In this document: in pieces, positions 3,342-58,500 of the stretch
How positions within the stretch are numbered: position 1 is the stretch's first letter
How the letters are laid out: every line of letters starts with the position of its first letter
Assembly (NCBI RefSeq): GCF_025147325.1
Contig: NZ_CP102262.1
Location: forward strand, 744,001 to 808,000
Length of the DNA: 64,000 nt
Direction of reading: 5' to 3'
Origin: Bacteroides stercoris ATCC 43183
Lineage (GTDB): Bacteria; Bacteroidota; Bacteroidia; Bacteroidales; Bacteroidaceae
Made by a program: the position numbers and the translations under genes
The notes under the pieces: model-generated
Database searches by the model: none
What the model was told of the DNA's origin: nothing
What the model saw: only the letters and a program-made list of their open reading frames with translations

Positions 3342-4634
3342 TTAGAGGCCGAAAGCCGCTTTCACCTTATCAACGTAATCCAGTTTCTCCCAGGTGAACA
3401 GTTCTACAGTCACGTCTTTATCGCCTTCATAGCGAGACTTGAAGTGTTTGGTGACAACCTGCGGCTCACGTCCCATATGACCGTAAGCGGCTGTTTCCTG
3501 ATAGATAGGGTTACGCAGTTTCAAACGGTCTTCAATGGCTTTCGGACGAAGGTCGAAAAGCTCATCGATCTTTCTGGCTATCTCGCCGTCGCTCATATTT
3601 ACATGGCTGCGCCCGTAGGTATTTACATATATATTGATAGGACGCGCCACACCGATGGCGTAAGATACCTGTACCAGCATTTCATCCGCCACACCGGCAG
3701 CTACCAGGTTCTTGGCAATGTGACGTGCAGCGTATGCGGCACTGCGGTCTACCTTGCTGGGGTCCTTACCGGAGAAAGCGCCACCGCCGTGTGCACCTTT
3801 ACCGCCGTAAGTATCCACAATAATCTTACGTCCGGTCAAACCGGTATCCCCATGAGGACCGCCGATTACGAATTTGCCGGTAGGATTCACATGATACTTG
3901 ATATTATCGTTAAACAGCGACAATACTTTCTCGTGATGGATAGACGCGATGACACGGGGCATCAGGATATTAACGACGTCGTTGCGGATAATGCCCAACA
4001 TCTCCTCGTCCGCCTTCAACTGTGCAGCTTCGCCGTCGTCGGCAGGCTGAATGAAATCATCGTGTTGGGTAGAAACTACAATCGTATCGATACGGACAGG
4101 ATTGCCGTTATCATCATATTCAATGGTTACCTGGCTCTTGGAGTCCGGACGCAGATACGTCATCACCTCTCCTTCGCGACGGATATCCGCCAGCACTTGC
4201 AGGATACGGTGGGCAAGATCCAGGGAGAGCGGCATATAATTTTCCGTTTCGTTAGTGGCATAACCGAACATCATGCCCTGGTCGCCCGCACCTTGTTCCA
4301 TAGGATCCTGGCGCTCCACACCACGGTTGATGTCGGGGCTCTGCTCGTGAATGGCGGAAAGCACGCCACACGAATTGCTCTCGAACATATACTCGCCTTT
4401 GGTATAGCCGATTTTCTTGATTACTTCACGCGCGATAAGTTGAAGGTCAACATACGCTTTGGTTTTCACTTCTCCAGCCAGCACTACCTGTCCGGTAGTA
4501 ACCAGAGTTTCGCAAGCTACTTTCGAACTGGGGTCATACGCCAACAGTTTGTCAAGCACAGCGTCCGATATTTGATCGGCCACTTTGTCGGGGTGTCCTT
4601 CCGACACCGATTCGGATGTGAATAAGTATCCCAT
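3342..4634 (-). CDS. metK: S-adenosylmethionine synthase
   Basis: The 430-residue protein has all MetK signatures: [11 protein letters not shown] near the N-terminus, [15 protein letters not shown] (adenosine/methionine loop) and [15 protein letters not shown] (phosphate-binding region). It joins methionine and ATP to make S-adenosylmethionine in the cytoplasm and normally acts as a tetramer. Length and motifs are complete. It is monocistronic here: a terminator follows it, and its own promoter and a roughly 160-base leader precede it. The leader holds a SAM-II-like riboswitch (4735-4795), which would give feedback control by the product of the enzyme. Confidence 0.98.
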
Positions 4635-4734: not shown

Positions 4735-4795
4735 AGGATGTGTTTTAGCATTTTTTTCCGTGGTTGCAAGCTACCCAAATCTTTCCACATATCGT
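4735..4795 (-). ncRNA. SAM-II-type riboswitch candidate in the metK leader
   Basis: Read on the minus strand, the leader holds GATTT, then seven bases, then TTGCA, then 15 bases, then GCTAAA. These are the three invariant blocks of the SAM-II (SAM_alpha) aptamer as I recall it, and the seven-base spacing between the first two is the same. P1 can form from TGTGG and CCACG. The pseudoknot can form from GGGT, just after GATTT, and ATCC, eight bases after GCTAAA. It begins about ten bases after a TATCTTTG promoter box and precedes metK. The 3' spacer is longer than in the classic class. Confidence 0.65.
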
Positions 4796-18663: not shown

Positions 18664-19119
18664 ATGAAAACTACAAATTTATTCAAAGCAGTCGCATTCG
18701 TAGCAATGATTATCGTAAGTATCATGAACTCAGAAGTCAAAGCCCAGGACAGATTCATTACCAATGAGGAAGTACAGAATGACCTGATAGTGGCAAAAAC
18801 CATCTTCAGACAAAGCGGAACTTACCTCTACAACCACATGCGTTATGAATTTACATACGATGACGAAAACCGCCTGACAAATAAAACCGCCTCCAAATGG
18901 GACAGCGTCAAAGAAAAATGGATGCCTTATTTCAGGATGTCCTATCAGTATGCCGACAATGAAATCACCTTATCCTACGCCCGCTGGAACGAAAAGCATC
19001 AGTCTTATGATAAAGATGTGAGAAAGAGCGTGTACGAAATGAATGCGGAGAATATGCCGGTAGCCTACAAAAGCAACCGCATATACCACACGGTAAACCT
19101 ACTGACAATGGCAGAATAA
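18664..19119 (+). CDS. Small secreted DUF3836-type protein
   Basis: The 151-residue protein has a clear signal peptide (MKTTNLFKAVAFVAMIIVSI, cleavage after VKAQ near residue 28) and a short mature domain rich in Tyr, Trp and charged residues (YEFTYDDENRLTNKTASKWD, RMSYQYADNEITLSYARWN). It resembles DUF3836, a family of small exported proteins in Bacteroides with many paralogs and no known role. It stands alone on the plus strand between two minus-strand operons, with its own control region upstream and a strong terminator 31 bases after the stop. Probably periplasmic or surface-located. Confidence 0.75.
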   Translation: MKTTNLFKAVAFVAMIIVSIMNSEVKAQDRFITNEEVQNDLIVAKTIFRQSGTYLYNHMRYEFTYDDENRLTNKTASKWDSVKEKWMPYFRMSYQYADNEITLSYARWNEKHQSYDKDVRKSVYEMNAENMPVAYKSNRIYHTVNLLTMAE

Positions 19120-19197: not shown

Positions 19198-20232
19198 TCA
19201 GAGTTCTTTTACAAAATAAGTCAAAGTAGGCAAATGGTCACTGTATCCGTTCTGGAAAGTAGTTCCGGAGAAAGTGCGCAACGGATAGCCTTTATACTTT
19301 CCTTCCTGCTGGATAAGGAACGGACGGTTAAAGACTTCCGATTTCCAAAACTTCAATGTACTGCGGTCCTTTCCTATCAGATTACCCGAAACAATCTGCT
19401 GGTCGAACAAGTTCCACTGATTCTGGTAACAGAGCGAACCGATGCCTTGCTCAAAGAGCTTCCAGGTAGCATTATAATAACCGCCGGGCTTCACTTCCCT
19501 GATGCTCTTCACAGCTCCCAGCACTTGGCTGCAACTCTTGTTATCGGGGTCGTCATTCATGTCGCCTACAATTATCACCTTTGCCTGCGGGTTATCGGCA
19601 TGCAGCGAGTCGGCTATATGGCGAGTGATGCCGGCTGCAAACTCGCGCAAGGGTGATGATTTGGAACCGCCATAGCGTGACGGCCAATGGTTTACAATCA
19701 TGTGAAAAGGCTCTCCTGCCAGTATACCGCTCACCAAAAGCTGGTCGCGTGTTTTATAGCCCGGCATGTCGGGCTTGGCAAACGGATAAGTACGTGCAGA
19801 CACAAAAGTAAACAGTCGCGGATTGTAAAGGGCAGCCACATCGATGCCACGGTGGTCGGGACTCTCGAAATGCACTATCCGGTAGCCCAATGAGGCGATA
19901 GGCTCTGTCTTTACCAGGTCCTCCAGGACTTTTTTGTTTTCTACTTCGGAGATGCCGATAATGGCAGGTCCGGCAGGACAATAGTCACGCGCCAATTGTG
20001 AAATCACCTTGGCAACATTCTGCAATTTCTGTTCGTATTTGACCTGTGTCCATTCGTACTTACCGCCCGGAGTAAAGTCATCATCGCCCGGATTATCCGG
20101 ATTGTCTTCCGTATCCCACAGATTCTCCAGATTATAAAAGGCGGCAGCATATACACGCAGCTTGCCCTGTGCGAGCAAGCCGGTGGACAGGCATAATACC
20201 AAAAAAGCTGACAATATGAGTCGTCTGTTCAT
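19198..20232 (-). CDS. Secreted endonuclease/exonuclease/phosphatase (EEP) family protein
   Basis: The 344-residue product has a signal peptide (LILSAFLVLCLSTGLLAQG) and a complete EEP catalytic set: FYNLENLWD (metal-binding Asn), ISEVENKK (Glu), DHRGIDVAALYNP, NHWPSRYGG, VGDMNDDPDN and YSDHLPTL (Asp-His). These Mg-dependent enzymes cut phosphodiester bonds in DNA, RNA or small phosphoesters; relatives are secreted bacterial nucleases. The start at 20232 is chosen because the signal peptide follows directly. It lies 13 bases after the DUF5689 stop, in an operon with a TonB receptor, suggesting action on nucleic acid outside the cytoplasm. Confidence 0.88.
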   Translation of the reverse strand: MNRRLILSAFLVLCLSTGLLAQGKLRVYAAAFYNLENLWDTEDNPDNPGDDDFTPGGKYEWTQVKYEQKLQNVAKVISQLARDYCPAGPAIIGISEVENKKVLEDLVKTEPIASLGYRIVHFESPDHRGIDVAALYNPRLFTFVSARTYPFAKPDMPGYKTRDQLLVSGILAGEPFHMIVNHWPSRYGGSKSSPLREFAAGITRHIADSLHADNPQAKVIIVGDMNDDPDNKSCSQVLGAVKSIREVKPGGYYNATWKLFEQGIGSLCYQNQWNLFDQQIVSGNLIGKDRSTLKFWKSEVFNRPFLIQQEGKYKGYPLRTFSGTTFQNGYSDHLPTLTYFVKEL

Positions 20233-20245
20233 AAAGCGCAATTTT

Positions 20246-21631
20246 TTAATTACCGGTAGGAGTAGGTTCGATAACTGTTCCGCCGTTACCGGTATTGCCA
20301 CCGGTAACCGCTGTTACTTTTACTTTTTGTATCTGCCACCTCAAAGCATTAGCCGTCGAACTCTTATAATGGAACGCAAATTGAATTTTCTTACCTGTAT
20401 AAGTATCCAATTTAATATCACCGGAAGCAACGAACTTATTATCTGTTCCTGTAGAATAGGTAGGAATGCCGACTTCTGTCCATACGTCTCCCCCTTCTTC
20501 TCTTACTTCCAGTTTCAAATCTTCCAAATGCGTATCGGCAGCAAATGTTTTAAAGGTGTGGTCGAAAGTCAAGATTACACTATTTTTGCCTGTCAAATCA
20601 AGTACAGGAGAAACAAGACGGCTTTCAGAGGCTTGATTAGCGCCATTAACATAGGCGCTTGCCATCATATAATAAGTTTCATTATAGTTAGACGCTTTCC
20701 ACACATAATCACTTCCCTGCGGAAGCTGGACATCCTCTATGGTAAATGCACCTTGCCCGCTCTCCTTGCCAAAAGACTCTTCAAGGATTGTCACCATCTC
20801 CTCCGGCTGTTCCGGCGTCTCATCTCCCCCCGGAGTTTCCGTAAAGTCCGCCACATCATCCGCACTTCTTACCGTAAGTTGCCAGCCTCCTTTGAAACGT
20901 CCCAGGATACCGGTTACGCTTCCTTTTCCTTTCGGCAGCTGATTGGCTGCAAAGTTGGCATACGAGCTGGTGCGTATCATAATGACATTCCCGTGACTGT
21001 CCTCTATGTTCTCTTCCCCATAGTCATCCTCCGGAGCAAAAGTGCCTTTTCCGCCATTTTGGAATGTTACGCCGGTAAATTTCACCAATTTGAACTTATA
21101 GCCGTTCACATCGGCATTCACCTTGCTGATATCATCTATTACAAGCGGAGTCACATTCTCCGGATTTGCCCAACTGTCTTTCTTCACGTGTGCCTGAAAC
21201 TCTTCCCACGGTGTACGGTAAAGATACCCGTCGGGGTGTCCCAGTTGCAACTCATCGCCATACATGGAAAGGCTCAATCCTTTCAGGTCGATATAAACCG
21301 TCTGCCCTACGGGATAGTAATTATACACGCTGTTCTGGTCCACTTCCATTTCGATGGCGCCGGTTTCGTCCTGCAAATAAATCTTCTTGAAGATATTTCC
21401 CGACTCGTCATTGGCAGTGATAACGGCTTTCATCACTTTTTCCTCGCCAATGGTATAGGGAGCATCCTCCCCTACTGTTGCCCCCATAGCACGCAGTTCC
21501 TCTATCGTGGTATTGGCTGCCGGACCATCATACTTGGGCTCGTTCAAAGGCGGCGCATCATAATCGCGCTCGCAGGCTGCGAACACAAGAGAAGAGATAA
21601 GCAATAAGCTGATTCTATTGAAAAGTTTCAT
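20246..21631 (-). CDS. DUF5689 lipoprotein with C-terminal beta-sandwich domain
   Basis: The 461-residue protein has a lipobox (VFAACERDYD, C20). Residues about 40-260 form a DUF5689 region with OB-fold-like strands (KAVITANDESGNIFKKIYLQ, VYIDLKGLSLSMYGDELQLG), and residues about 275-445 form a choice-of-anchor-like beta sandwich (SFGKESGQGAFTIEDVQLP). DUF5689 proteins are often encoded or fused with extracellular nucleases in Bacteroidota; a nucleic-acid-binding role is plausible but unproven. The neighbours are a TonB receptor 33 bases upstream and the EEP enzyme 13 bases downstream, so the three form a unit. Confidence 0.8.
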   Translation of the reverse strand: MKLFNRISLLLISSLVFAACERDYDAPPLNEPKYDGPAANTTIEELRAMGATVGEDAPYTIGEEKVMKAVITANDESGNIFKKIYLQDETGAIEMEVDQNSVYNYYPVGQTVYIDLKGLSLSMYGDELQLGHPDGYLYRTPWEEFQAHVKKDSWANPENVTPLVIDDISKVNADVNGYKFKLVKFTGVTFQNGGKGTFAPEDDYGEENIEDSHGNVIMIRTSSYANFAANQLPKGKGSVTGILGRFKGGWQLTVRSADDVADFTETPGGDETPEQPEEMVTILEESFGKESGQGAFTIEDVQLPQGSDYVWKASNYNETYYMMASAYVNGANQASESRLVSPVLDLTGKNSVILTFDHTFKTFAADTHLEDLKLEVREEGGDVWTEVGIPTYSTGTDNKFVASGDIKLDTYTGKKIQFAFHYKSSTANALRWQIQKVKVTAVTGGNTGNGGTVIEPTPTGN

Positions 21632-21664
21632 ATTCTTATAATTTTTCTGATTATATAGGATTGG

Positions 21665-24385
21665 TTAAAAACGATAACTTACGTTGAGGAAACAATTCAG
21701 TCCCTGCATATAGTAATACTTGCCACCAAAACGCGTAGGATAGCTCAGGTCGGAACGGCCCTGTTCATAGCCGCCCGTACATATATCTTTCTTGTTCAGC
21801 AGGTTGTTTACCGAAAGGTTGAAGTTGACAGACTGGCGTCCGGGCAGATAGAATATCTTACCCACCGAAATGTCCACCGTATAAGCTGCCGGAAAACGTT
21901 CCTGCGTAGTCAGTGTACGGTAGGCCTCCATCTGTTCCGGATTGTAGGGATTGACGGAAGCATAGTTGGACGACAGGCGGCGCAACGGTGCAACCTCGAT
22001 ATAATTGCGGGCAAAACCGTTGACATTGGCTCCCAGGAACCAGTAGTTCACAAAGTAACGCACACCGAAAGTGCCGGCAAACTGCGGCATTCCACCCACA
22101 TAAACATCTTTCATGTACACCTTTTCCTGATCCGTTATCTTACCGTTTTCGGAGTGCTTCACACCGTCAGGGTTATTGCTGTAATAATATTCGGAAATGG
22201 TTCCTGCAAGGTCGAAGCTCCAATGGTCGTCCAACTTGTAGGTAGCCCCCAGTTCCAGTCCGCGGTGAATGCGGTTTACACCGTACAACACGTGATTGAT
22301 GAATGTGCCCTCTATGCCGTCGTAATAACTGTTACGCTCCATCTGGTCGTAGAAATTGGTTTGGAAAACACCGATACGTCCAGCCAGTTGGGGCATGGAG
22401 AATACATAGTTGAGGTCGGCGCTGAAGATGCGTCCGCTCTTCATGTTGTCGATTGTGCGGTCGGTGATACGGGGTGAGATATACGCCTCATTGGGCAGCG
22501 GCGCTTCGCTGCCGTAACTGATGTTGGCGGTCAGCATATGGCGCCCGTTAAACTTATAAGTGAGACCGCCCTTTACGGTAATATCGGTAAACTGATGACG
22601 GATACCCTTGCCATAGGAACTGTCCGGATAGCGTCCGTTGCGCATCTTTCCGTCGCGGCGGAAATTGGTATAAGTCAGCTTGGCTCCATAGTAGTAGTCC
22701 CAGTGCCGCGAAGTATAGCGGTTCACCGCCCAGGCATTTGCCGAGTAGATGTTCAGATTGAAATTGTAACCGAAGATACCGTCCTTATACACTTTACGGT
22801 CCGGACGGTTCAAGTCGTTCTGCAACTTGTCGTGGTCGCCCGAAAAATCGCGTTCGGCAAACTTGTCGATATCCAGCACATAGTTGCTGCCCAGCAGGTC
22901 GTCTACCGTCTTGAACTGGCGCGACTGCGTAAAGCGCGCCCCTACTCCCGCCGTCAAACCCAGATGACGGTTAAACTGCTTGTTCAGTGTGGAGTTGAAC
23001 GAGGTCTCCAACAGGTCGCTGCGGCGCTCTTCCACCATATATACGGCAGCACCGTTACCGGCACGCAGGTTATTGGCATTGGCCAGATAAAGGTTGTCCC
23101 AGTTTATCTGGGTGAAATCGGGACGTCCGCTACGCCATAAGTCACGGTACTGCATCTGCATATCCTCGTCTTCAAAATAAGAGGGCAGGTAGCGATAGTA
23201 GTCGGGACGCGGGTCGGGAGCGTTATACCAGTTCAGCGCCGTATTGCCATAGCGTGCATAATGCGCACCCACACCAGTGGTGAGCGTCGTAGTATCGTCT
23301 ATCTTCCAGATATGCGAGATAACGGCGGTCGGGTCGAATGCGGTCACTACTTTCGCATTGCGTTTCTTGCCATTCTGGTATCCCCAATTAGGATTGTAAA
23401 GGTAGTTGTCGGTCAGCTCGTAGACCTCACGGTATGAGTTACCTTGCTGTCCGCGCTGTACGGGCGATACGAAAGCGGTCATCGAAAGGCTGTGCTTGCC
23501 GCCCTGCCACTGCTTCTCGGCAGAGAAAGCAAGAGCCAGGTTGTTGTAAAACGTACCGTCTATGTTTCCCTCGTGCGAATAGCGGCCACCTGCCGATGCG
23601 GTAAACGCCCATCCTTTTTCGTTGAGTCCGGTGGAATAGGTAAACATGCCCCGCAGGTAGTAGTTACGGTTGGTATAGCTCACGGTAGCCTTGCCGCCGG
23701 GAGTATAGGACGATGCACGCATATTTATATTTTCGGCACCGCCCAGTGCTCCGAAAGTAAAGGTAGAGGGTGCGGTGAAGTTGGTTACGTCACCGTTGCG
23801 GGTCATGTCATTCAATGCTCCAACAGAGGCATAATTAAACACTCCGCGGTTCTGGTCATTAAACTCCACGCCGTTGATGTATTTCAGTTCCTGCGAACCG
23901 GTATAGCCGCGCGGCGAGAAACGGGCGGGCGACAACTGGTAGGCGGCGCGGTTCAGAAAGACATCGTTAGAGAGGATTACGGTGGAGCTCACATCCTGCG
24001 AAGCGTTCTCCACATCGTCATCCACCATGCCTGCGTCTATCACGCCAATCATGGAGATGTCTTCGGTGGCATTCAGCTCGGTCACCTTAATGGGCTCAAG
24101 TTCTGTAACGCCCAGTTTTTCCACTTCAATGGTTACACTCTTCGGAGTAATCAATACGGAGTTGAGCTGTATGACATGGCTTCCCGGCTGCAAATTACGG
24201 AGAATGAAATTACCGTTTGCATCGGTAGTAACCTGTCTGTCCTGCCCGGTCAGAGTGACGATGACTCCGGGTACAGGCTCATTGCTCACTGCTCCGACTA
24301 CACTGCCTTTCACCGTACCTGCACTTTGAGCAAAGGCGAGACAGGGGAAGAAGAATGTAATGAAGAACAGTAATTTTAGTTTCAT
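21665..24385 (-). CDS. TonB-dependent receptor with carboxypeptidase-regulatory-like domain (not SusC type)
   Basis: The 906-residue protein has a signal peptide (LLFFITFFFPCLAFAQ), a beta-sandwich N-terminal domain (about 24-100, GSVVGAVSNEPVPGVIVTL), a plug with SPARFSPRGYTGSQELKYIN and NMRASSYTPGGKATVSY, and a long barrel ending FLNVSYRF with the usual terminal Phe. It lacks the SusC length and signature motifs and has no SusD partner; the DUF5689 lipoprotein may fill that place. The cargo is unknown; nuclease neighbours suggest oligonucleotides or nucleosides. An imperfect inverted repeat lies in the 190-base gap upstream. Confidence 0.92.
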   Translation of the reverse strand: MKLKLLFFITFFFPCLAFAQSAGTVKGSVVGAVSNEPVPGVIVTLTGQDRQVTTDANGNFILRNLQPGSHVIQLNSVLITPKSVTIEVEKLGVTELEPIKVTELNATEDISMIGVIDAGMVDDDVENASQDVSSTVILSNDVFLNRAAYQLSPARFSPRGYTGSQELKYINGVEFNDQNRGVFNYASVGALNDMTRNGDVTNFTAPSTFTFGALGGAENINMRASSYTPGGKATVSYTNRNYYLRGMFTYSTGLNEKGWAFTASAGGRYSHEGNIDGTFYNNLALAFSAEKQWQGGKHSLSMTAFVSPVQRGQQGNSYREVYELTDNYLYNPNWGYQNGKKRNAKVVTAFDPTAVISHIWKIDDTTTLTTGVGAHYARYGNTALNWYNAPDPRPDYYRYLPSYFEDEDMQMQYRDLWRSGRPDFTQINWDNLYLANANNLRAGNGAAVYMVEERRSDLLETSFNSTLNKQFNRHLGLTAGVGARFTQSRQFKTVDDLLGSNYVLDIDKFAERDFSGDHDKLQNDLNRPDRKVYKDGIFGYNFNLNIYSANAWAVNRYTSRHWDYYYGAKLTYTNFRRDGKMRNGRYPDSSYGKGIRHQFTDITVKGGLTYKFNGRHMLTANISYGSEAPLPNEAYISPRITDRTIDNMKSGRIFSADLNYVFSMPQLAGRIGVFQTNFYDQMERNSYYDGIEGTFINHVLYGVNRIHRGLELGATYKLDDHWSFDLAGTISEYYYSNNPDGVKHSENGKITDQEKVYMKDVYVGGMPQFAGTFGVRYFVNYWFLGANVNGFARNYIEVAPLRRLSSNYASVNPYNPEQMEAYRTLTTQERFPAAYTVDISVGKIFYLPGRQSVNFNLSVNNLLNKKDICTGGYEQGRSDLSYPTRFGGKYYYMQGLNCFLNVSYRF

Positions 24386-24439
24386 ACGTTAATTGGGGTA
24401 TAATAATGAGGGGTTAAAAACTATTCTGATAATAATGCG

Positions 24440-24539
24440 TCAAAATCTACTATAGGTACACAGATAAACACAAGATTAAGGAATTGATTACCATCCATAT
24501 CTATATTTACCTGTATAGTCTATGATAAGAAGATTTTGA
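24440..24539. repeat. Inverted repeat between the fimbrillin and TonB-receptor genes
   Basis: TCAAAATCT...TAGGTA (24440-24458) pairs with TACCTGTATAG...AGATTTTGA (24508-24539). The outer nine bases are perfect and the inner TAGGTA/TACCT block extends the stem. It lies inside the presumed operon and could process or attenuate the transcript. No T-run follows the stem. Confidence 0.5.
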
Positions 24540-24575
24540 CACACTATGCAAAATACAAAGAAGAAAAAAGTTGGA

Positions 24576-26504
24576 TTAATCAAGCTGGATTAACTCCATA
24601 TCATCGTAATAGATATAGCCTCCTGCTTCATTTGTAGTCATATTTCTATAAGCTCTTATCTCAAAACGTACTTTAACCACATTTTCAGGCATTGTAATCT
24701 CAATTTTTACTTGTTGCCAATCAGGATTGTCGACAGAATATTCCTCTTGCTGTATTTCGGCATTCAAATCATTAACAGTTTTCCCATTAGCATCAACTAA
24801 AGCAAACCAATAACGACTGCTGGCTTTGGCATCATTATCTAAGAACCAATAGGACAAGCGATATTTCTTTCCGCCCAAAACCTCAGCTTCCTGCTGTATT
24901 TTACTTGTCTTACTACTTGATGTTTGTCTCAAAGAATAATCTCCACTATGTTTTATGGTTGCTTCCTTTACAATTTCACCTATATTATAATTATTATCCC
25001 ATTTGATAGGAAGTTTTTCTCCCCATTCTTCAAATCCAGGGTTAATTAAAAGATTATTACCCGGCGTTGGCTCCGGTTCCGGCTCCGGTTCAACAGTGCC
25101 TCCACCTTCTCCTGAAGATAATTTAACACTAAATAAACGTAAACCACAAGTATTATCAGTTGATGTACAATAGAATTCCAATGTAGTTTTATCACTTACT
25201 GCAACATTCTCAATAACTAATTTAAACGGAAGATTAGCTTCGTTATTCTCTTTACTTACCACTTTACTCGGTACGGCAAGGTCTACACCGTTACAACGAA
25301 CCTTTAAAGTAGCCAAGTCCTGGCTGGCACCCGGATCATAAACATTTGCCCCAACTTCATATTCCAAAGTAGCAGTAGTAGCTCCTTTCATATCAATGTT
25401 CTTTATCTTCAATGAATGCTCTACATTTGTGGAGAACCAAACATTAGTTTTTTTATCAGTACCAGTAGTACGCACACTAAGTTTTCCCGTAGCATCCTCA
25501 AACATTTCTTTAGGATTATCAAACCCTGTATAATCTTTTACCAATGGCCATTGGTTACCATTTTTTTCCGGTGTACCAAAAGTTTCAATAAATACCACTC
25601 CTTCCGGCTGCTCACCGCCACCTTCACCAAAGTCCACATTAATATCGCCACCAGGCTGGTCTGTCCACGATTCAATGCTTGCTCCGCCCATAGTAACGGC
25701 AGGTTTACCGTTTTCCGTGGACAAAGTAGCAGTGTACGTGTACTTATATCCGGCCTCAAAACCGGCACCGCCATTTACGGAAACAGGCCATTCGAAAGTC
25801 TTACCGTCCAGCACGAATGTCATCTTGACGCCATCCAGTGTAGTGGTAGGCAAGATAATCGCCTCAGCAGTAGTGCCATCGGCACTGACATTCATCTCGA
25901 TATCGGCTTTACTCTCTTTAGCTGCCAGCGTACCGTCAGCCAGATTAAAATCGGCTTGTGTATTCATTCCGGAAAGAGAGATTTTCAATCCGCTTATATC
26001 GGGAAGAGTCTCATCGCTACCGACAGCAATCACAATCTGACTCAGTTTATGTTTGAAAGCCAGGTCTACAGCCTCTCCGGCAGCAATTGCCTTGGCATTA
26101 TCAGAATAAAGCAAGTCTACTTTGGCAGGGTCTGCCTGATTATCTACAGACACGGCTAAAGTCTTACCGTTTAAAGATGCGGAATAAGGATAATAAGCAA
26201 TGAAATTTGCCGTTCCTTCTTCCGGATACCTCAATGTCTGTCCCGGAGCAGCCGTAAGCGTACCGCCGTCCGATGCAACATATTTCTTGTTGGCAAATTC
26301 AGCAGTTTGCGTCGTCATAAAGATACCTACCTCATCACCATTGCTCCAAACGTCTTTGGAAGCTTTGGTCTGCAGGCCGTCAATGCGGGAATTGAAAGTA
26401 ACGCTGTTACTGTCCAACCATTCACTATTGTCATCATTGTTAGTACATCCCGTAAAAACAAGGGCTGACAATGCGCCCATAATCAATAAATTACTGACTC
26501 TCAT
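24576..26504 (-). CDS. Fimbrillin-family lipoprotein with C-terminal ligand-binding-like domains
   Basis: The 642-residue protein has a lipobox (LVFTGCTNNDDN, C20) and an N-terminal fimbrillin domain (about 35-290; VWSNGDEVGIFMT, LRYPEEGTANFIAYYPYS). A beta-sandwich (about 305-465; VVFIETFGTPEKNGNQWPLV) and a CBM-like module (about 480-640; LLINPGFEEWGEKLPIKWD) follow. The N-terminal domain is plainly homologous to that of the next gene upstream. The C-terminal half is more AT-rich than the N-terminal half, which hints at domain exchange. It is not obviously a pilus subunit; surface display of a binding module is more likely. Confidence 0.82.
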   Translation of the reverse strand: MRVSNLLIMGALSALVFTGCTNNDDNSEWLDSNSVTFNSRIDGLQTKASKDVWSNGDEVGIFMTTQTAEFANKKYVASDGGTLTAAPGQTLRYPEEGTANFIAYYPYSASLNGKTLAVSVDNQADPAKVDLLYSDNAKAIAAGEAVDLAFKHKLSQIVIAVGSDETLPDISGLKISLSGMNTQADFNLADGTLAAKESKADIEMNVSADGTTAEAIILPTTTLDGVKMTFVLDGKTFEWPVSVNGGAGFEAGYKYTYTATLSTENGKPAVTMGGASIESWTDQPGGDINVDFGEGGGEQPEGVVFIETFGTPEKNGNQWPLVKDYTGFDNPKEMFEDATGKLSVRTTGTDKKTNVWFSTNVEHSLKIKNIDMKGATTATLEYEVGANVYDPGASQDLATLKVRCNGVDLAVPSKVVSKENNEANLPFKLVIENVAVSDKTTLEFYCTSTDNTCGLRLFSVKLSSGEGGGTVEPEPEPEPTPGNNLLINPGFEEWGEKLPIKWDNNYNIGEIVKEATIKHSGDYSLRQTSSSKTSKIQQEAEVLGGKKYRLSYWFLDNDAKASSRYWFALVDANGKTVNDLNAEIQQEEYSVDNPDWQQVKIEITMPENVVKVRFEIRAYRNMTTNEAGGYIYYDDMELIQLD

Positions 26505-26571
26505 AATGATTTGTTTTTGAGATTGGTTTTGTTTTTATGTTGTCTTAATTGAGTACCTTTGTACAGTAGGA

Positions 26572-28209
26572 TTATTGCCATTTGGATAAATCCAATTGGC
26601 TCTTTGTGCTCTCATCAAGTCCCGGGAAGAACTCAAATCCGGTATTCTTTTCCAAATCACTGACGGAAACCGCATATTTCATATAGGATTGAGAATCTGT
26701 ATAGTCCCTATGTTGCATCCAGAAAGCAATCGTATGATACTTGCCGCCTATCTTACGCGCCACAGCCTTAAAATAATAGGACGGAATAGGAATATCCTTG
26801 CCATCATTATCCTTTATAGATTTTTCTTTTATCCAAGTAGCATCATCTGAAGGCGGTACTGCACCGGTCACAACATAAACTGTATCCGAAGCCGTAGACC
26901 AACTATTAATTCTATGTTCCAAATTCATCCAAATAGCTCCGTTAAATTTGTCTTGTCTTTGCGGAGTCTGATTGGTAAAATAAAATGTCTGATTATTCAT
27001 CTCCATGGTAGCTACACGGTCATTACTCGGTATTTGATGTCCTCTTCTATAAATCTTCCCACCATAGGATTTTGAAACCACAGTTTGAAATTCATTCTCC
27101 CTCACAAGAGGATCAGAAACCCAGTTATCCTTTCGCTCTACATTTTTCTCAGTATAGCACCGATGCAAAGGATAAGCCACCCAATGTGCCATCTTCATCT
27201 TTTTATCATACAGCATACTATAATTACGTATCATCTGTCCCTCCATATCCGGTCGGGCAGTACCCTTATATTTTTGCTTCGTATTATGAGTAACATACAT
27301 CAAATCATGATTTTCCATCTGTGCCTTCGTTATAACCGGCGTCTCAAACCACTTGGCATACTTAGGCGCTTCAGGGTCTACCGTTGTATTTCCCCCTGTA
27401 TTACTGATTTTCAAATTAAGCGTATACCTTTCTCCTGCCTCAATATTTCCCGCTACATTTGTTTCAATCTCCTTATCTTTCCCGTTGATGGATAATGTAA
27501 TTTTCAGTTTTCCTTCAAAGGATTGCGGTATCAGCACAGCATCCGCCTGCGTACACTCTTTATTGACGCACATGGAAACAGCTTTTTCTTCATTTCCCAA
27601 TTCAATGTTATCACTCTCTTTCGAAAGGTCTATGGTAGCCTTGCTTATCAGTGGCTGCACCGTTGCTTTGATGCCCGTTAGCGAACTGCCGTCGGCACTG
27701 CTCAGATTCAGCACCAGTTTTGCCAGCAAATGGCGGAATTGAAGATTGCCGGTAGGGGACGTCGCAGTTCTGCCTGTCAGGTTAACAGCTGCCATCAGGT
27801 CTATATCCTGCTGACGGCTCTGGTCTGTCACATCAAGGACATACCGGGTATGATCCGTCACTTGCTCATCATACGGATAATAAGCAATGAAATCCACCGC
27901 CGTTCCGTCTTCCGGATAATAAACGGCATTGCCCGCTTTGCCCACGAAATTGCCGTCACCTCGTGCGGTGACATACGCCGCATTGGCTTTAAGGACCTTT
28001 TTATCGGCATTGTCGAGCATAAAAAGACCGATCACATCATTCGCTTCCCACGAAGCATTGACCGCTCTCGACATCACCCTATCATCTATGACAGATGTAA
28101 ATGTGGCTTCCGCAGCCTGATTACCCTGCGGCAATTCAGCAAATTTACTTTCACAAGCCTGAAGAACGATAAACAAGGATAGAAATCCGATTGCACTTTT
28201 AATTGTCAT
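26572..28209 (-). CDS. Fimbrillin domain fused to a DNA/RNA non-specific endonuclease (lipoprotein)
   Basis: The 545-residue product starts MTIKSAIGFLSLFIVLQACE with lipid-bearing C19. Residues about 35-270 are a fimbrillin domain (VYYPEDGTAVDFIAYYPYDE). Residues about 285-540 are a NUC/endonuclease_NS domain with YRRGHQIPSNDR (H391 as general base), FYFTNQTPQRQDKFNGAIW and EHRINSW, the Asn and Glu metal region. The usual DRGH is RRGH here. The start at 28209 is chosen over a 76-codon upstream extension that lacks any signal peptide. It is first in the nuclease/TonB operon and likely acts on the cell surface. Confidence 0.85.
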   Translation of the reverse strand: MTIKSAIGFLSLFIVLQACESKFAELPQGNQAAEATFTSVIDDRVMSRAVNASWEANDVIGLFMLDNADKKVLKANAAYVTARGDGNFVGKAGNAVYYPEDGTAVDFIAYYPYDEQVTDHTRYVLDVTDQSRQQDIDLMAAVNLTGRTATSPTGNLQFRHLLAKLVLNLSSADGSSLTGIKATVQPLISKATIDLSKESDNIELGNEEKAVSMCVNKECTQADAVLIPQSFEGKLKITLSINGKDKEIETNVAGNIEAGERYTLNLKISNTGGNTTVDPEAPKYAKWFETPVITKAQMENHDLMYVTHNTKQKYKGTARPDMEGQMIRNYSMLYDKKMKMAHWVAYPLHRCYTEKNVERKDNWVSDPLVRENEFQTVVSKSYGGKIYRRGHQIPSNDRVATMEMNNQTFYFTNQTPQRQDKFNGAIWMNLEHRINSWSTASDTVYVVTGAVPPSDDATWIKEKSIKDNDGKDIPIPSYYFKAVARKIGGKYHTIAFWMQHRDYTDSQSYMKYAVSVSDLEKNTGFEFFPGLDESTKSQLDLSKWQ

Positions 28210-28610
28210 ACTGAAAAATATTAAATATCTTACAATTGTTTTTATTGAACTGTTTTCTGTTTTTTTAAAATAAGTGCATAAAATTATAAAATAAAATACA
28301 CATAAATAAAGACCCGGAACAAAATCTGCATAGCATACAGTAAAAAAGTCCTTTTTTACCAAAAATATGACAATAATATGAAAATATAATGTCAAATATA
28401 AACCCTTCCCATTATAGACCCAATGGGAAATAAACAAGAAAATAAAAAGAATAGGATGAAAACAACAACTATACAGGTTAGAAATATCAAGTAAAAAAAC
28501 AGAGCATCAATAATAAAAAATCCATTTAACAATAAAGATAGCGTCAATCGAAATATCTAAAAATGAATAACCTGTAGTTTGTTTTTGAAAAGTGAATTAT
28601 TTAAAAAGAA
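28210..28610. other. AT-rich leader and spacer upstream of the fimbrillin-nuclease gene
   Basis: No convincing gene is present. It holds the predicted promoter (28393-28423), an approximately 177-base leader, and a perfect GTAAAAAAG/CTTTTTTAC hairpin at about 28340-28358 inside that leader. A second TATTTTTG box (28360-28367, minus) is an alternative start. Beyond 28424 I see only AT-rich sequence. Confidence 0.5.
28393..28423 (-). promoter_or_regulatory. Promoter candidate of the nuclease/TonB operon
   Basis: On the minus strand TTG (28423-28421), a 20-base spacer and TATATTTG (28400-28393) match the Bacteroides promoter. Transcription would begin near 28386, leaving a leader of about 177 bases. 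Confidence 0.5.
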
Positions 28611-43605: not shown

Positions 43606-45285
43606 ATGAAAGCGTTCGAATTCAAGCCAAAGCTATACACGGCTTTAAAAAATTACTCGAAAGAACTCTTCATGGCAGACCTGATGGCCGGTATCATTGT
43701 GGGTATCGTTGCCTTGCCGCTTGCCATTGCGTTCGGTATTGCATCAGGCGTATCGCCCGAGAAAGGTATTATCACGGCAATCATCGCCGGTTTTATCATC
43801 TCCCTGTTAGGAGGAAGTAAAGTTCAGATCGGCGGCCCTACCGGTGCGTTCATCGTCATTATCTACGGCATTATCCAGCAATACGGAGAGGCCGGGCTGA
43901 TTGTCGCCACACTGATGGCGGGTGTCATCCTCATTCTTCTGGGAGTATTCAAACTGGGGGCAGTCATTAAGTTTATCCCCTATCCTATTATCGTAGGCTT
44001 TACAAGCGGTATCGCCGTTACTATCTTCACCACCCAGATTGCGGATGTATTCGGATTGAATTTCGGCGGAGAGAAAGTTCCGGGAGACTTCATCGGGAAA
44101 TGGCTGGTTTATTTCCGTCATTTCGATACCGTCAACTGGTGGAATACGGCTGTCAGCATCGTCAGCATCGTTATCATTGCCATCACTCCGAAGTTCTCGA
44201 AGAAGATTCCCGGCTCGCTCATCGCCATTATCGTAGTGACCGTAGCCGTGTACCTGATGAAGATGTATGGCGGCATCGACTGCATCGACACTATCGGCGA
44301 CCGTTTCAGCATCAAAGCCGAACTGCCCGATGCCGTAATGCCCGCGCTGAACTGGGAAGCGATTAAGAATCTGTTTCCCGTTGCCATCACGATTGCCGTA
44401 CTGGGAGCGATAGAATCCTTGCTGTCCGCCACCGTAGCCGATGGTGTTATCGGCGACAAGCACGACTCCAATACCGAACTGATAGCCCAGGGCGTTGCCA
44501 ATATGGCTACTCCCCTTTTCGGCGGTATCCCCGCTACGGGCGCCATTGCCCGCACAATGGCGAATATCAACAACGGCGGCAAATCGCCCGTGGCCGGTAT
44601 AGTACATGCAGTGGTGCTGCTCCTGATTCTTCTGCTGCTGATGCCGCTGGCGCAATACATTCCGATGGGCTGCCTGGCAGGCGTACTGGTGGTTGTGTCC
44701 TATAATATGAGTGGCTGGCGCGTGTTCAAGGCATTGTTGAAGAACCCGAAATCGGACGTTACCGTGTTACTGATAACCTTCTTCCTGACGGTTATCTTCG
44801 ACCTTACAGTTGCCATCGAAGTGGGTCTGGTCATCGCCTGCGTGCTCTTCATGCGCCGTGTAATGGAGACGACCGAAATTTCGGTTATCAAGGATGAAAT
44901 AGACCCGAACGCCGAAACGGACATCACAACGAACGAAGAGCATCTTATTATTCCGAAAGGCGTAGAGGTGTACGAAATCAACGGCCCTTACTTCTTCGGC
45001 ATTGCAACGAAGTTCGAGGAAGTGATGGCACAGCTCGGCGACCGCCCCAAAGTACGCATCATCCGTATGCGCAAGGTTCCTTTCATCGACTCCACGGGTA
45101 TCCATAACCTAGAAAGCCTTTGCAAAATGTCTCAGAAAGAAAAGATAACCGTCGTGCTCTCCGGCGTAAACACAAAGGTACATCAGGTATTGGAAAAGGC
45201 GGATTTCTACACGCTTTTAGGCAAAGAGAATATCTGCCCCAACATCAACGTGGCACTGGAACGGGCACACAAACTGGTTGAATGA
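43606..45285 (+). CDS. SulP-family inorganic anion transporter with STAS domain
   Basis: The 559-residue protein has an SLC26/SulP membrane part of about 10-14 helices (LMAGIIVGIVALPLAIAFGI, KVQIGGPTGAFIVIIYGI) and a C-terminal STAS domain (about 440-555; VEVYEINGPYFFGIATKFEE, KVPFIDSTGIHNLESL). SulP proteins move sulfate, bicarbonate or other anions across the inner membrane; the substrate cannot be told from sequence. A 5' hairpin starts the predicted leader. A membrane-anchored nuclease follows by 55 bases. Confidence 0.93.
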   Translation: MKAFEFKPKLYTALKNYSKELFMADLMAGIIVGIVALPLAIAFGIASGVSPEKGIITAIIAGFIISLLGGSKVQIGGPTGAFIVIIYGIIQQYGEAGLIVATLMAGVILILLGVFKLGAVIKFIPYPIIVGFTSGIAVTIFTTQIADVFGLNFGGEKVPGDFIGKWLVYFRHFDTVNWWNTAVSIVSIVIIAITPKFSKKIPGSLIAIIVVTVAVYLMKMYGGIDCIDTIGDRFSIKAELPDAVMPALNWEAIKNLFPVAITIAVLGAIESLLSATVADGVIGDKHDSNTELIAQGVANMATPLFGGIPATGAIARTMANINNGGKSPVAGIVHAVVLLLILLLLMPLAQYIPMGCLAGVLVVVSYNMSGWRVFKALLKNPKSDVTVLLITFFLTVIFDLTVAIEVGLVIACVLFMRRVMETTEISVIKDEIDPNAETDITTNEEHLIIPKGVEVYEINGPYFFGIATKFEEVMAQLGDRPKVRIIRMRKVPFIDSTGIHNLESLCKMSQKEKITVVLSGVNTKVHQVLEKADFYTLLGKENICPNINVALERAHKLVE

Positions 45286-45340
45286 CCCGGCAATTGCAAA
45301 CCGCCTCTCTTTAATAACAGGAAAAGAAAACCGTATCGTC

Positions 45341-46201
45341 ATGGCAAAAAGAAAAAGCAGCAAGAAGCAATCTCAAGGAGTGATTTACCTGATAGTGCTG
45401 GCATGTCTGGCACTCATCTGCCGTGAACCGATAGCCCGTGCGCTGCAAGACAAGCTTCCTGTAATTAAAGAGAGGATAACGCAAAAAGCAACACCCGCCA
45501 TCACCGGAAGCCCCCTGCTTCCCGCTCCCCTGAAAAACGTACCCGAACAGATATTGCACCGCAAGGGCTATACCACTTCGTACAACCGCGAACATAAGAT
45601 ACCCAACTGGGTGGCATGGGAACTGACACCCGAAAAACTGATAGAGCGGGAAAGCCGTACCGACAAATTCCTGCCCGACCCCGACCTGCCCGAAAGCCAA
45701 GCTGTGACTACCGACGATTATAAACGCTCCGGCATGGACCGCGGACACATGTGCCCTGCCGGCGACAACCGCTGGCACTGGAAAGCCATGCAGGAAAGTT
45801 TCTACATGACCAACATCTGCCCCCAAAACCACAATCTGAACCGGGGCGACTGGAAAGAACTGGAAGATGCCTGCCGCCTGTGGACAAAAAAAGAAGGAAA
45901 GCTATACATCGTATGCGGTCCGATTCTTTACCGGCAAAAACACCGTACCATAGGCAGGAAACACAAAGTTACCGTGCCCGAAGCTTTCTTCAAAGTCATA
46001 CTCAGTACCCGCAACGGGCATCCTAAAGCCATTGGCTTTATCTTTAAAAATTTATCAGGAAATCATCCGTTAAAAAACTATGTCAACAGCGTGGATGAAG
46101 TGGAACGCATCACTGGCATTGACTTTTTTCCTGCTCTGCCGGATGATGTTGAGAAAAAGGTTGAAGCCATGCAAGATTTAAATTTATGGAGCTTTCGCTA
46201 A
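45341..46201 (+). CDS. Membrane-anchored DNA/RNA non-specific endonuclease
   Basis: The 286-residue protein has a Lys/Arg-rich N-terminus (MAKRKSSKKQ), a single membrane helix (VIYLIVLACLALICRE) and a NUC domain with the intact DRGHMCPAGDNRW motif (D133-H136) and FYMTNICPQNHNLNRGDWKE, which holds the metal-binding Asn and Glu. It should act in the periplasm on DNA or RNA. ATG 45341 is chosen because the basic tail and helix follow; an upstream start at 45278 would overlap the SulP gene by eight bases. Co-transcription with the transporter is likely. Confidence 0.88.
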   Translation: MAKRKSSKKQSQGVIYLIVLACLALICREPIARALQDKLPVIKERITQKATPAITGSPLLPAPLKNVPEQILHRKGYTTSYNREHKIPNWVAWELTPEKLIERESRTDKFLPDPDLPESQAVTTDDYKRSGMDRGHMCPAGDNRWHWKAMQESFYMTNICPQNHNLNRGDWKELEDACRLWTKKEGKLYIVCGPILYRQKHRTIGRKHKVTVPEAFFKVILSTRNGHPKAIGFIFKNLSGNHPLKNYVNSVDEVERITGIDFFPALPDDVEKKVEAMQDLNLWSFR

Positions 46202-46616: not shown

Positions 46617-49565
46617 ATGAGAAAATCAATTCTTTGGTTTGTACTTTTAACATTATTCGAGATTCCTTATGTGCTTGCACAAAATGGATTTCGGGTGACG
46701 GGACAAATCATCTCGGCTGATGACAATCAACCGGTTATTGGTGTGTCCATTATAGAAAAAGGTACAACAAATGGTGTAATTACCGATGTTGACGGTAATT
46801 ATAGTATTATGGTGACAAAATCACCTACGAGTTTACAGTTTTCTTATATTGGTATGAAAACTGTAGAAAAAGAGTTTACGGCTGCCACCCGCTTTGATTT
46901 GAAGATGGAATCCAGTGCGGAAATGGTAGATGAAGTGGTAGTTGTGGCTTACGGTGTGCGTAAGAAAGGAACAACAACAGGTTCAATGTCGGTTGTAAAA
47001 GACAAAATCATGGAAGCTGTTCCTACTCCAAGTTTCGACCAGGCACTGCAAGGACAAGCTTCAGGATTACAGGTTTTGTCCAGCAGCGGTGAACCCGGTG
47101 CCGTAGCTAATTTCAAAATCCGCGGTATCAACTCTATCAATGCTGGTACAGAACCTTTATTTATCCTGGACGGAGTAGCCGTTTCGTCAGAAGACTTTTC
47201 AGCTATCAACCCCAGTGATATAGAAAGCGTATCGGTATTGAAAGATGCCTCCTCCACTTCCATCTATGGAGCACGTGCAGCCAACGGTGTAATTGTGATT
47301 ACCACCAAACGCGGACGTGTAGGAGATAACGGTAAGATTGCAGTACGTGCACAATACGGTGTATCTTCACTTGCCTATGGCAAATGGGACGTAATGAATA
47401 CGACCGAACGACTTAACTATGAAGAAGAAATAGGATTGCGTAAGGCGGGTTCATACGACCGTGAACTGCTGGAACGCACAAACATAGACTGGCGTGATGT
47501 AGTATATAACGATGCTGCAAGTTTCTACAGCACCGAAATCCAAACAAGCGGAGCTACGCAAGGCGGATTTAACTACTTCATCTCAGGAAATATATTTTCG
47601 CAAGACGGTATCGCCGTTGGGTCCAGCTACGACCGTTATACTTTCCGTGCCAACCTGGAAGCTAAAATCAACAATTGGTTCAAAGTAGGAAGCAACGCCA
47701 CTTTCGCATACGAAAAAATAAGCGAAGCTCAGGAAGGAGAGTACACAACCTCTACTCCTATTTCCGCGTCACGCCTGATGCTTCCCTACTGGAACCCTTA
47801 TAAAGAAGACGGAAGCTGGGCTTCTGCCGCCGACGGAAGTTGGACTGGTTCCAATGTTAACCCTATGGAGTGGCAGACAACTAACTGGAACGATACGAAC
47901 AAATGGAAAGTCATTGCCACGGCTTTTGCCGAACTGCGTCCGCTCCCCGGTTTAACGCTCCGTACATTGGGAGGTATAGACTTCCTGGATATGAGAAGCA
48001 ACAACGAAACTTCTCCCGACTTTGTCGGCAACCAGGGTGAAGGTGCCATTGGCCGCGGTTTCTCCCGTGCAACGAACCTTACCTGGACCAATACCATCTC
48101 TTATTTGTTCGACATCAAAGACGATCATCACTTCAATGTGCTATTGGGACAGGAAGCTGTGGATAACCAATCTGACGCTTTCTCCGTAATAGGCCGCGGA
48201 CAGACAAACTCTTATCTTGTGAACCTGTCTGCTGCAACCCGTGCCGATATTCCTACCGATTCAAGAAGCGGCAGTACTTACCTCTCTTTCTTCGGTCGTG
48301 CGGAATATAACTATTTAGGTAAATACTTCGTTGACCTCAGCGCACGCCGGGATGCATCTTCACGTTTCGGTACCAATTCGCGTTGGGCCAACTTCTGGTC
48401 GGTAGGTACAATGTGGAATGCAAAAGCCGAAAGCTTCTTGGAAAATGTATCTTGGCTGGACAACGCACAGCTACTTGCCAGCATCGGTACATCCGGTAAC
48501 TCTTCCATCCCCGACTATGATCATCTGGCATTAGTGGCAGGCGGTCCTATCTACGGACTCGAAGGCCAGGTTCTTCCGGGTCTTGCTCCTTACTCCAAAG
48601 GAAACGAAGACTTAACTTGGGAAAAGACCACTATCCTGAACATCACCATGAAATTGGGATTCCTGAACAGATTTAACCTGACTGCGGAATTCTATAACAA
48701 ATATACCTCGGACATGCTGATGGCTGTTCCCGTTTCCGTAGTAGGCGGATACTCCACCCGCTGGAGCAACATGGGTGCCATGGTTAACCGCGGTGTAGAC
48801 CTGGACTTGAATGTAAATGTGCTGAAATTCAAAGATTTCCTTTGGACTGTTTCAGCCAACGCATCTTACAACAAAAATGAAATCAAGGAACTCTATGAGG
48901 GTCGCGATGAATACGAACTCTCTACCACCGGTCTGTTCCTGAAAAAAGGACACTCTTTCGGTGAGTTCTACACCAACCGTTTCGCTGGAGTCAACCCCGC
49001 CAATGGTGATGCTTTGTGGTACGACAAAAACGGTAACCTCACCAACGAATGTCTGGACGAAGACAAAGTGCTGGTAGGTAAAAGCTATATCGCTCCCTGG
49101 CAGGGCGGTTTCGGTACATCCCTTTCCTGGAAAGGACTTACCGTATCTACTCAGTTCAGTTGGGTGGCCGACCGTTGGATGATGAACAACGACCGCTATT
49201 TCAATGAAAGCAACGGTACGTTCGTCAACTATAACCAGTCGAAGAAAATGCTTTACGACCGCTGGAAGAAACCGGGCGACGTAGCCACAGTTCCTCGTTA
49301 CGGCATCGCCGCACAGTTGGACAGCCGTTTCTTGGAAGACGCGTCTTTCTTGCGTTGGAAAAACCTGATGGTTTCTTATACATTGCCCGCCAACCTGCTT
49401 GCTCCGTTGAAAGTAGTTGAGAATATCCGCGTATATGCACAAGGACAAAATCTACTTACATTCACGAAGTTCCAGGGCATGGACCCGGAATCGAGCATGA
49501 ACATCTATGCGGCGCAATATCCGATGTCTCGCCAGTTCTCCATAGGACTTGAGATAGGTTTTTAA
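46617..49565 (+). CDS. SusC/RagA-family TonB-dependent outer-membrane transporter (locus 2)
   Basis: The 982-residue protein has a signal peptide (ILWFVLLTLFEIPYVLAQ), a carboxypeptidase-regulatory-like domain (about 25-100; GQIISADDNQPVIGVSIIEK), a plug with VDEVVVVAYGVRKKGTTTGS and TEPLFILDGVAVSSED, and a barrel ending MSRQFSIGLEIGF. There is no STN domain, so trans-envelope signalling to a sigma factor is not expected. It heads an eight-gene operon of surface lipoproteins with no hydrolase. RagA-type importers of peptides share this architecture, but the ligand is not shown. Confidence 0.97.
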   Translation: MRKSILWFVLLTLFEIPYVLAQNGFRVTGQIISADDNQPVIGVSIIEKGTTNGVITDVDGNYSIMVTKSPTSLQFSYIGMKTVEKEFTAATRFDLKMESSAEMVDEVVVVAYGVRKKGTTTGSMSVVKDKIMEAVPTPSFDQALQGQASGLQVLSSSGEPGAVANFKIRGINSINAGTEPLFILDGVAVSSEDFSAINPSDIESVSVLKDASSTSIYGARAANGVIVITTKRGRVGDNGKIAVRAQYGVSSLAYGKWDVMNTTERLNYEEEIGLRKAGSYDRELLERTNIDWRDVVYNDAASFYSTEIQTSGATQGGFNYFISGNIFSQDGIAVGSSYDRYTFRANLEAKINNWFKVGSNATFAYEKISEAQEGEYTTSTPISASRLMLPYWNPYKEDGSWASAADGSWTGSNVNPMEWQTTNWNDTNKWKVIATAFAELRPLPGLTLRTLGGIDFLDMRSNNETSPDFVGNQGEGAIGRGFSRATNLTWTNTISYLFDIKDDHHFNVLLGQEAVDNQSDAFSVIGRGQTNSYLVNLSAATRADIPTDSRSGSTYLSFFGRAEYNYLGKYFVDLSARRDASSRFGTNSRWANFWSVGTMWNAKAESFLENVSWLDNAQLLASIGTSGNSSIPDYDHLALVAGGPIYGLEGQVLPGLAPYSKGNEDLTWEKTTILNITMKLGFLNRFNLTAEFYNKYTSDMLMAVPVSVVGGYSTRWSNMGAMVNRGVDLDLNVNVLKFKDFLWTVSANASYNKNEIKELYEGRDEYELSTTGLFLKKGHSFGEFYTNRFAGVNPANGDALWYDKNGNLTNECLDEDKVLVGKSYIAPWQGGFGTSLSWKGLTVSTQFSWVADRWMMNNDRYFNESNGTFVNYNQSKKMLYDRWKKPGDVATVPRYGIAAQLDSRFLEDASFLRWKNLMVSYTLPANLLAPLKVVENIRVYAQGQNLLTFTKFQGMDPESSMNIYAAQYPMSRQFSIGLEIGF

Positions 49566-49594
49566 TGTGTAATAAATTATATAACAGCATATAT

Positions 49595-51124: not shown

Positions 51125-51146
51125 CAATAAAACCCGATTAGCAAAA

Positions 51147-52058: not shown

Positions 52059-52069
52059 AATAACACAGT

Positions 52070-54025: not shown

Positions 54026-54048
54026 TGATTTATAAGAGAAAAACAACG

Positions 54049-56676: not shown

Positions 56677-56684
56677 GAGAAATT

Positions 56685-58469: not shown

Positions 58470-58500
58470 ATAGAATGATATACGAACTATGAATATATAT

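Follow-up and report, generated by a model that had tools for sequence, protein, structure and literature searches.

A putative TonB-linked locus for outer-membrane DNA import in Bacteroides stercoris, with homologs of Riemerella anatipestifer transformation genes

Natural transformation of the duck pathogen Riemerella anatipestifer was investigated in a transposon screen by Huang et al. (2021, PMC8459023). Markerless deletion of either RA0C_RS04915, an outer-membrane protein with a CarboxypepD_reg domain, or RA0C_RS04920, a protein with DUF5689 and choice-of-anchor J domains, reduced transformation from approximately 5e-5 to below detection. Insertion mutants of ComEC, DprA, and RecA were likewise below detection in the same table. 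ComEC was essential for transformation, and the nuclease that makes single strands was left unidentified by the authors. On distribution, the paper in one place describes homologs of the new genes as widespread in Bacteroidetes and in another restricts the receptor to Flavobacteriaceae. In Porphyromonas gingivalis, deletions established that ComEA and ComEC are needed for competence at the inner-membrane step, and import into the periplasm was called unclear (2024, PMC11532111). Here we describe five neighbouring genes on the minus strand (19198..28437) of a 64,000-nt stretch of the genome of Bacteroides stercoris ATCC 43183 (NZ_CP102262.1), hereafter the window, within which coordinates are given unless another locus or genome is named. 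The locus encodes homologs of the Riemerella pair. It is probably a TonB-powered outer-membrane module that imports DNA for natural transformation, with an EEP-family enzyme and a surface nuclease processing the DNA. We favour this reading because the Riemerella homologs of the receptor and of the DUF5689 lipoprotein are each essential for transformation.

The corresponding Riemerella region was located in the genome of strain CCUG25054 via a published comEC primer, the published locus tags being those of ATCC 11845. The gene order in CCUG25054 is RecA, four genes, ComEC, two genes, EEP (−), receptor (+), and DUF5689 (+), and Pfam confirmed RecA, ComEC, EEP, and DUF5689. Counting the tags by fives from RS04870 (RecA) assigned RS04895 to ComEC, RS04910 to EEP, and RS04915/RS04920 to the pair, in agreement with the publication. 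The receptors of the window and of Riemerella share 30% identity (E 6e-119), the DUF5689 proteins 24% (E 1e-22), and the EEPs 36% (E 1e-78). With the Riemerella receptor as query, the best match in the B. stercoris genome was the window receptor, at 354 bits versus 111 for the next; within its own genome, the next match of the query scored 62 bits. Each genome contains a single DUF5689 match, that of B. stercoris being in the window.

The original prediction named conservation of the five-gene order across the Bacteroidales as a check. Such conservation is not supported: the conserved unit is the EEP, receptor, and DUF5689 genes, and the fimbrillin genes are local additions. DUF5689 was present in 126 of the 296 genomes of the class at E ≤ 0.001. 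Class-wide, we hand-picked 40 loci from the better DUF5689 matches, a choice that favours strong matches to this domain. The DUF5689 domain lay within 1.5 kb of the receptor, in the same direction, in 38 of these loci (exceptions, L050 and L060), and an EEP gene lay within 4 kb in 33 (all but L050, L051, L052, L060, L063, L080, and L081). The DUF5689 counts were based on a profile of that domain only; a broader profile, which also reaches choice-of-anchor domains, gave 39/40 class-wide. Among the 295 Bacteroidales genomes, the receptor profile matched 175 at E ≤ 1e-60 and 141 at E ≤ 1e-200. A further 40 loci were chosen by receptor, at intervals among the matches of at least 894 bits. The DUF5689 gene adjoined the receptor gene co-directionally in all 40, and an EEP gene was present within 2.5 kb in 32 (31 divergent, one co-directional). 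These counts were made on all open reading frames (ORFs), as greedy gene calls had dropped true genes such as that of the window DUF5689 protein. Based on the counts, the locus represents more than a chance arrangement. The distances among the three core proteins were also correlated (r 0.79, 0.74, and 0.55; 68/82 loci); these values were not used as evidence of interaction, as the label-permutation control keeps shared ancestry.

Additions to the core were more restricted. A NUC domain occurred near the core in 4 of the 40 order-wide loci and in all six genomes examined from the window's family. Among those six, the fusion of NUC to a fimbrillin domain, together with a fimbrillin neighbour gene, was present only in the window and in genome G129. 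Apart from the window, only G129 (L046) had the EEP gene co-directional and 3′ of DUF5689. Another genome, G599 (L156), combines the receptor, DUF5689, and NUC, and EEP is absent within 2.5 kb; receptor matches below 1e-280 occur in four genomes of its family (f147).

The assignment of the receptor was evaluated using Pfam and structural profiles. In the Pfam scan, the protein encoded at 21665-24385 matched CarboxypepD_reg and lacked Plug and barrel matches, in contrast to SusC proteins encoded at other places in the window. When a profile of 21 receptor relatives was compared with solved structures, CarboxypepD-like domains were matched, including a SusC-homolog fragment at 1.5e-4, and the match to the OprC barrel was weak (0.053). 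The designation TonB-dependent receptor is a prediction from the N-terminal domain, length, and homology. Pfam detected no SusD partner among the five genes of the locus. The B. stercoris genome encodes another such receptor, a distant one (G000:C1:3179299-3181896, L008; 24-25% identity). Of 30 pattern matches to the receptor in viral contigs, none was confirmed as a relative.

The neighbouring lipoprotein (20246-21631) matched DUF5689 at 2.4e-65 in Pfam and also choice_anch_J. All 20 aligned DUF5689 proteins matched a simple lipobox pattern, and in many of them the cysteine is soon followed by acidic residues. Acidic residues at this position would fit the surface export signals of Bacteroidota. 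Against NCBIfam NF052645 (M949_1556 family), the window protein scored 149.8 bits over nearly its full length and failed the cut-off of 475; because of this score, it is referred to here as a homolog and not as a family member. The Riemerella protein (L114 18387-19796) scored 590.8 bits. Only 2 of the 296 class genomes passed the cut-off, and none did among the 32 genomes of the order of genome G222. A PDB search with DUF5689 yielded no useful structure. A single-sequence structure prediction of the window lipoprotein had a mean predicted local distance difference test score of 39.6 and was not used. Among the control genomes, the DUF5689 family also scored above cut-off in Bacillus subtilis, where the secreted nuclease YhcR is a candidate for the match.

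The EEP enzyme matched Exo_endo_phos_3 (PF19580) at 1.9e-121 (405.3 bits versus a cut-off of 27). The motif positions N, E, E-N, H, G-D-x-N-D, and S-D-H are identical in all 68 core EEPs. The enzyme is a predicted nuclease and may instead be a phosphatase; among solved structures in the PDB, none was related to it at E ≤ 0.01. In a FastTree tree of 72 EEPs, read by topology without branch supports, the window EEP clustered with other core-locus EEPs of Bacteroidales and apart from its own two paralogs. One of these paralogs, L004, fell among core EEPs from a different genus in the family; thus, duplications have occurred. A second EEP gene lies beside an aldolase-like gene at L045 17067-18083 and at L004 8983-10119, approximately 2 kb from the core cluster in genome G069 (L045) and far from it in the B. 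stercoris genome (L004).

The fimbrillin-NUC protein matched Mfa_like_1 (9.5e-45) and Endonuclease_NS (PF01223; 5.2e-41, 141.2 bits versus a cut-off of 23). The NUC domain was aligned to cyanobacterial NucA (1zm8/2o3b) via the RGH and N..W..NLE motifs, whose residues are kept. The adjacent fimbrillin lipoprotein matched Mfa_like_1 at 2.1e-51; its CBM_4_9 score of 25.3 bits was just below the cut-off of 25.9. Overall, these data support the original prediction of an outer-membrane uptake locus linked to nucleic acids that includes two differently folded predicted nucleases and lacks SusD. Outside the locus, a second Endonuclease_NS gene in the window (45278-46201, +) encodes a candidate exported nuclease and is overlapped by 8 bases by a gene for a SulP-type sulfate permease (pair 43606-46201).

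We propose that the core performs the outer-membrane step of natural transformation in Bacteroidota, in which the DUF5689 lipoprotein would capture DNA on the cell surface and pass it to the receptor. Opened by energy from TonB-ExbBD, the receptor would allow the DNA to pass through its barrel into the periplasm. The EEP would then trim the DNA or strip one strand before ComEC moves single-stranded DNA inward. In the window's family, the Serratia-type nuclease, here part of a fimbrillin-fused lipoprotein, may cut or nick bound DNA to generate ends. The EEP gene, beside the receptor gene in most loci, is a natural candidate for the missing Riemerella nuclease. RS04910 is named once in the text of PMC8459023, as an unaffected upstream gene, and we found no report of its deletion in the open-access (PMC) literature. 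The strand-degrading enzyme could be one other than the EEP, since many ComEC proteins carry a nuclease-resembling domain (PMC8579336). The EEP is newly noticed here as a third core gene, and the surface nuclease is specific to the lineage. More tentatively, and with somewhat less than even confidence, we suggest that a TonB-powered receptor with a DUF5689 lipoprotein, and not a type IV pilus, could be the general outer-membrane DNA importer for natural transformation across the Bacteroidota, with the EEP supplying the missing nuclease step ahead of ComEC and some Bacteroidales adding an end-making surface nuclease.

With respect to the energy source, mutation of tonBA or tonBB lowers transformation in R. 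anatipestifer and mutation of tbfA does not; iron uptake was affected in the tonBB mutant only, not in tonBA (PMC8383284). The B. stercoris genome encodes ComEC (1562537), DprA (712836), and two NamZ/DUF1343 proteins, and none of these genes adjoins the core. In the essential Riemerella set, these are joined by RecA, ComF, and an HHH protein. In G222 (L082 1327-13856), genes for ComEC, ExbD, and ExbB lie within approximately 6 kb of a DUF5689-receptor-EEP core. Specifically, ComEC is approximately 5 kb from DUF5689. The intervening genes include those for ExbD and ExbB, one for an enzyme of the Mur-ligase family, and one, adjoining DUF5689, for a Por_Secre_tail protein. This region also encodes a 254-aa protein that is TonB-like by eye and has no Pfam match. 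As the side and the intervening genes differ between G222 and Riemerella, the arrangement suggests that the core joined ComEC separately in the two.

The original prediction had proposed that the locus serves to scavenge nucleic acids. The link to nucleic acids is supported; the purpose is less well supported than transformation, as the Riemerella homologs are essential for the latter (PMC8459023). Under the scavenging proposal, extracellular DNA or RNA would be degraded by nucleases at the surface, and oligonucleotides or nucleotides taken up by the receptor would supply phosphate, carbon, or bases. Transforming DNA would use the same door in Riemerella, hence the loss of transformation in the mutants. 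Two predicted nucleases do adjoin the receptor, and a dihydroorotase-like gene occurs near the core in 11 of the 40 order-wide loci (L123-L162), but the top clusters of recurrent neighbours included no nucleoside transporter or phosphatase family (genes and clusters were named by eye). Removing phosphate from Riemerella raised dprA and comEC transcripts two- and threefold, as scavenging would have it, yet lowered transformation (PMC8383284). Deleting either Riemerella gene led to a complete loss of transformation (PMC8459023), which also argues against scavenging. Overall, we consider the proposal unlikely. A still less probable explanation, to which we give little weight, is an indirect effect: the lipoprotein and receptor would shape the surface, including lipopolysaccharide (LPS) and adhesion, and their loss would block transformation without any contact with DNA. 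The fimbrillin domains of the window suggest surface structures. In addition, the M949_1556 family includes the Riemerella DUF5689 protein, and citing papers link the M949_1556 gene to antigenicity and pathogenicity as well as to LPS synthesis (PMC4976936, PMC6557517). The Riemerella transformation lipoprotein and the subject of the LPS and antigenicity work seem to be of the same gene family. However, transformation of the mutants was below detection, as for the ComEC, DprA, and RecA insertion mutants (PMC8459023), and an effect on LPS leaves the adjacency of EEP in 32 of 40 loci unexplained.

Several observations weigh against import for transformation. The experimental support comes from Riemerella, outside the Bacteroidales, and the function would carry over by homology at low identities (24-36%). 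The best match of the receptors was established in one direction only, from the Riemerella query to the B. stercoris genome. The window DUF5689 protein falls under the cut-off of the M949_1556 subfamily that holds the Riemerella one, and M949_1556 is itself cited for roles in LPS synthesis, antigenicity, and pathogenicity. Flavobacterium johnsoniae has homologs, yet was not competent in the conditions tried, and the screen of 3,000 Riemerella mutants did not hit the EEP gene (PMC8459023). Eight of the 40 order-wide loci lack an EEP, one of which, L124, ends too early to show it. ComEC, present in 291 of the 296 class genomes versus 126 for DUF5689, is non-discriminating; co-occurrence with ComEC across the class failed as a test for this reason, and the ComEC of B. 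stercoris indicates no more than that this genome can supply the inner step. Finally, the dihydroorotase-like neighbours and glycosyltransferase-like ones (13 of the 40 order-wide loci, named by eye) either reflect inheritance of the gene order or hint at nucleotide metabolism.

The features of the locus are summarized in Table 1. The five co-oriented genes and their domains, as originally predicted, were confirmed using the ORF list and Pfam. Two starts were revised by reading the sequence. The listed ORF 26572-28437 begins at a TTG, 76 codons 5′ of the likely ATG of the nuclease gene at 28209, after which come the signal peptide and lipobox; the EEP gene, listed as 19198-20301, probably begins with the ATG at 20232. 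With these starts, the intergenic gaps are 67, 190, 33, and 13 bases in the order of transcription. The five genes form a putative single transcript, and the 190-base gap 5′ of the receptor gene may hold a second promoter. A Bacteroidales promoter pattern had no minus-strand site near the five genes and six matches in the window versus 2.4 expected. On visual inspection, lipoprotein signals are present in the DUF5689, fimbrillin, and nuclease proteins, and ordinary signal peptides in the EEP and receptor.

Table 1. Genes of the proposed DNA-import locus in the B. stercoris window
Feature	Position	Strand	Basis and remarks
Fimbrillin-NUC lipoprotein	26572..28209	-	Pfam; N-terminal fimbrillin-like domain, C-terminal Endonuclease_NS; lineage-specific partner
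Fimbrillin-like lipoprotein with CBM_4_9-like C-terminal domain	24576..26504	-	Pfam; related gene in G129 (L046 13027-14943)
TonB-receptor-like outer-membrane protein, RA0C_RS04915 homolog	21665..24385	-	Pfam CarboxypepD_reg and homology
DUF5689 and choice-of-anchor J lipoprotein, RA0C_RS04920 homolog	20246..21631	-	Pfam, NCBIfam, and homology
Exported EEP-family enzyme (PF19580)	19198..20232	-	Pfam; homolog of the Riemerella gene beside RA0C_RS04915

Other features of the window lie outside the locus. A gene for a small DUF3836 protein (18664-19119, +) converges on the EEP gene. The region 46617-60321 (+) encodes a SusC/SusD pair and then several BACON and leucine-rich-repeat proteins; the five proteins scanned there included no carbohydrate enzyme. 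The sole Rfam match in the window is a SAM-II riboswitch (4735-4794, −), approximately 100 bases 5′ of the gene at 3342-4634.

If the locus imports DNA as proposed, it provides a defined gene set for the outer-membrane step in an order where gene transfer matters in both gut and mouth. Should it only scavenge, it would still be a widely conserved, DNA-linked transport locus of the Bacteroidales. Among known systems, the R. anatipestifer module shares the adjacent, co-directional genes for a homologous receptor and a DUF5689/choice-of-anchor J lipoprotein, with an EEP gene beside the receptor gene. In Riemerella, however, the EEP gene is divergent and ComEC lies three genes from the receptor, whereas the window EEP gene is co-directional and last, ComEC is elsewhere in the genome, and the fimbrillin-NUC protein and fimbrillin lipoprotein are added. 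SusC/SusD loci similarly combine an outer-membrane receptor with a CarboxypepD-like domain, a surface-type lipoprotein partner, and enzymes; the window locus differs in having no SusD, a receptor without Pfam Plug or barrel matches, and nuclease-like enzymes. Its NUC domain resembles Serratia/NucA-type nucleases in scoring above the Pfam cut-off and keeping the motif residues, and differs in its fusion to a fimbrillin-like domain within a lipoprotein. Finally, P. gingivalis, whose competence involves ComEA, ComEC, and ComF, belongs to the same bacterial order as B. stercoris; the outer-membrane step is called unclear there (PMC11532111), and the window locus is a candidate for that step.

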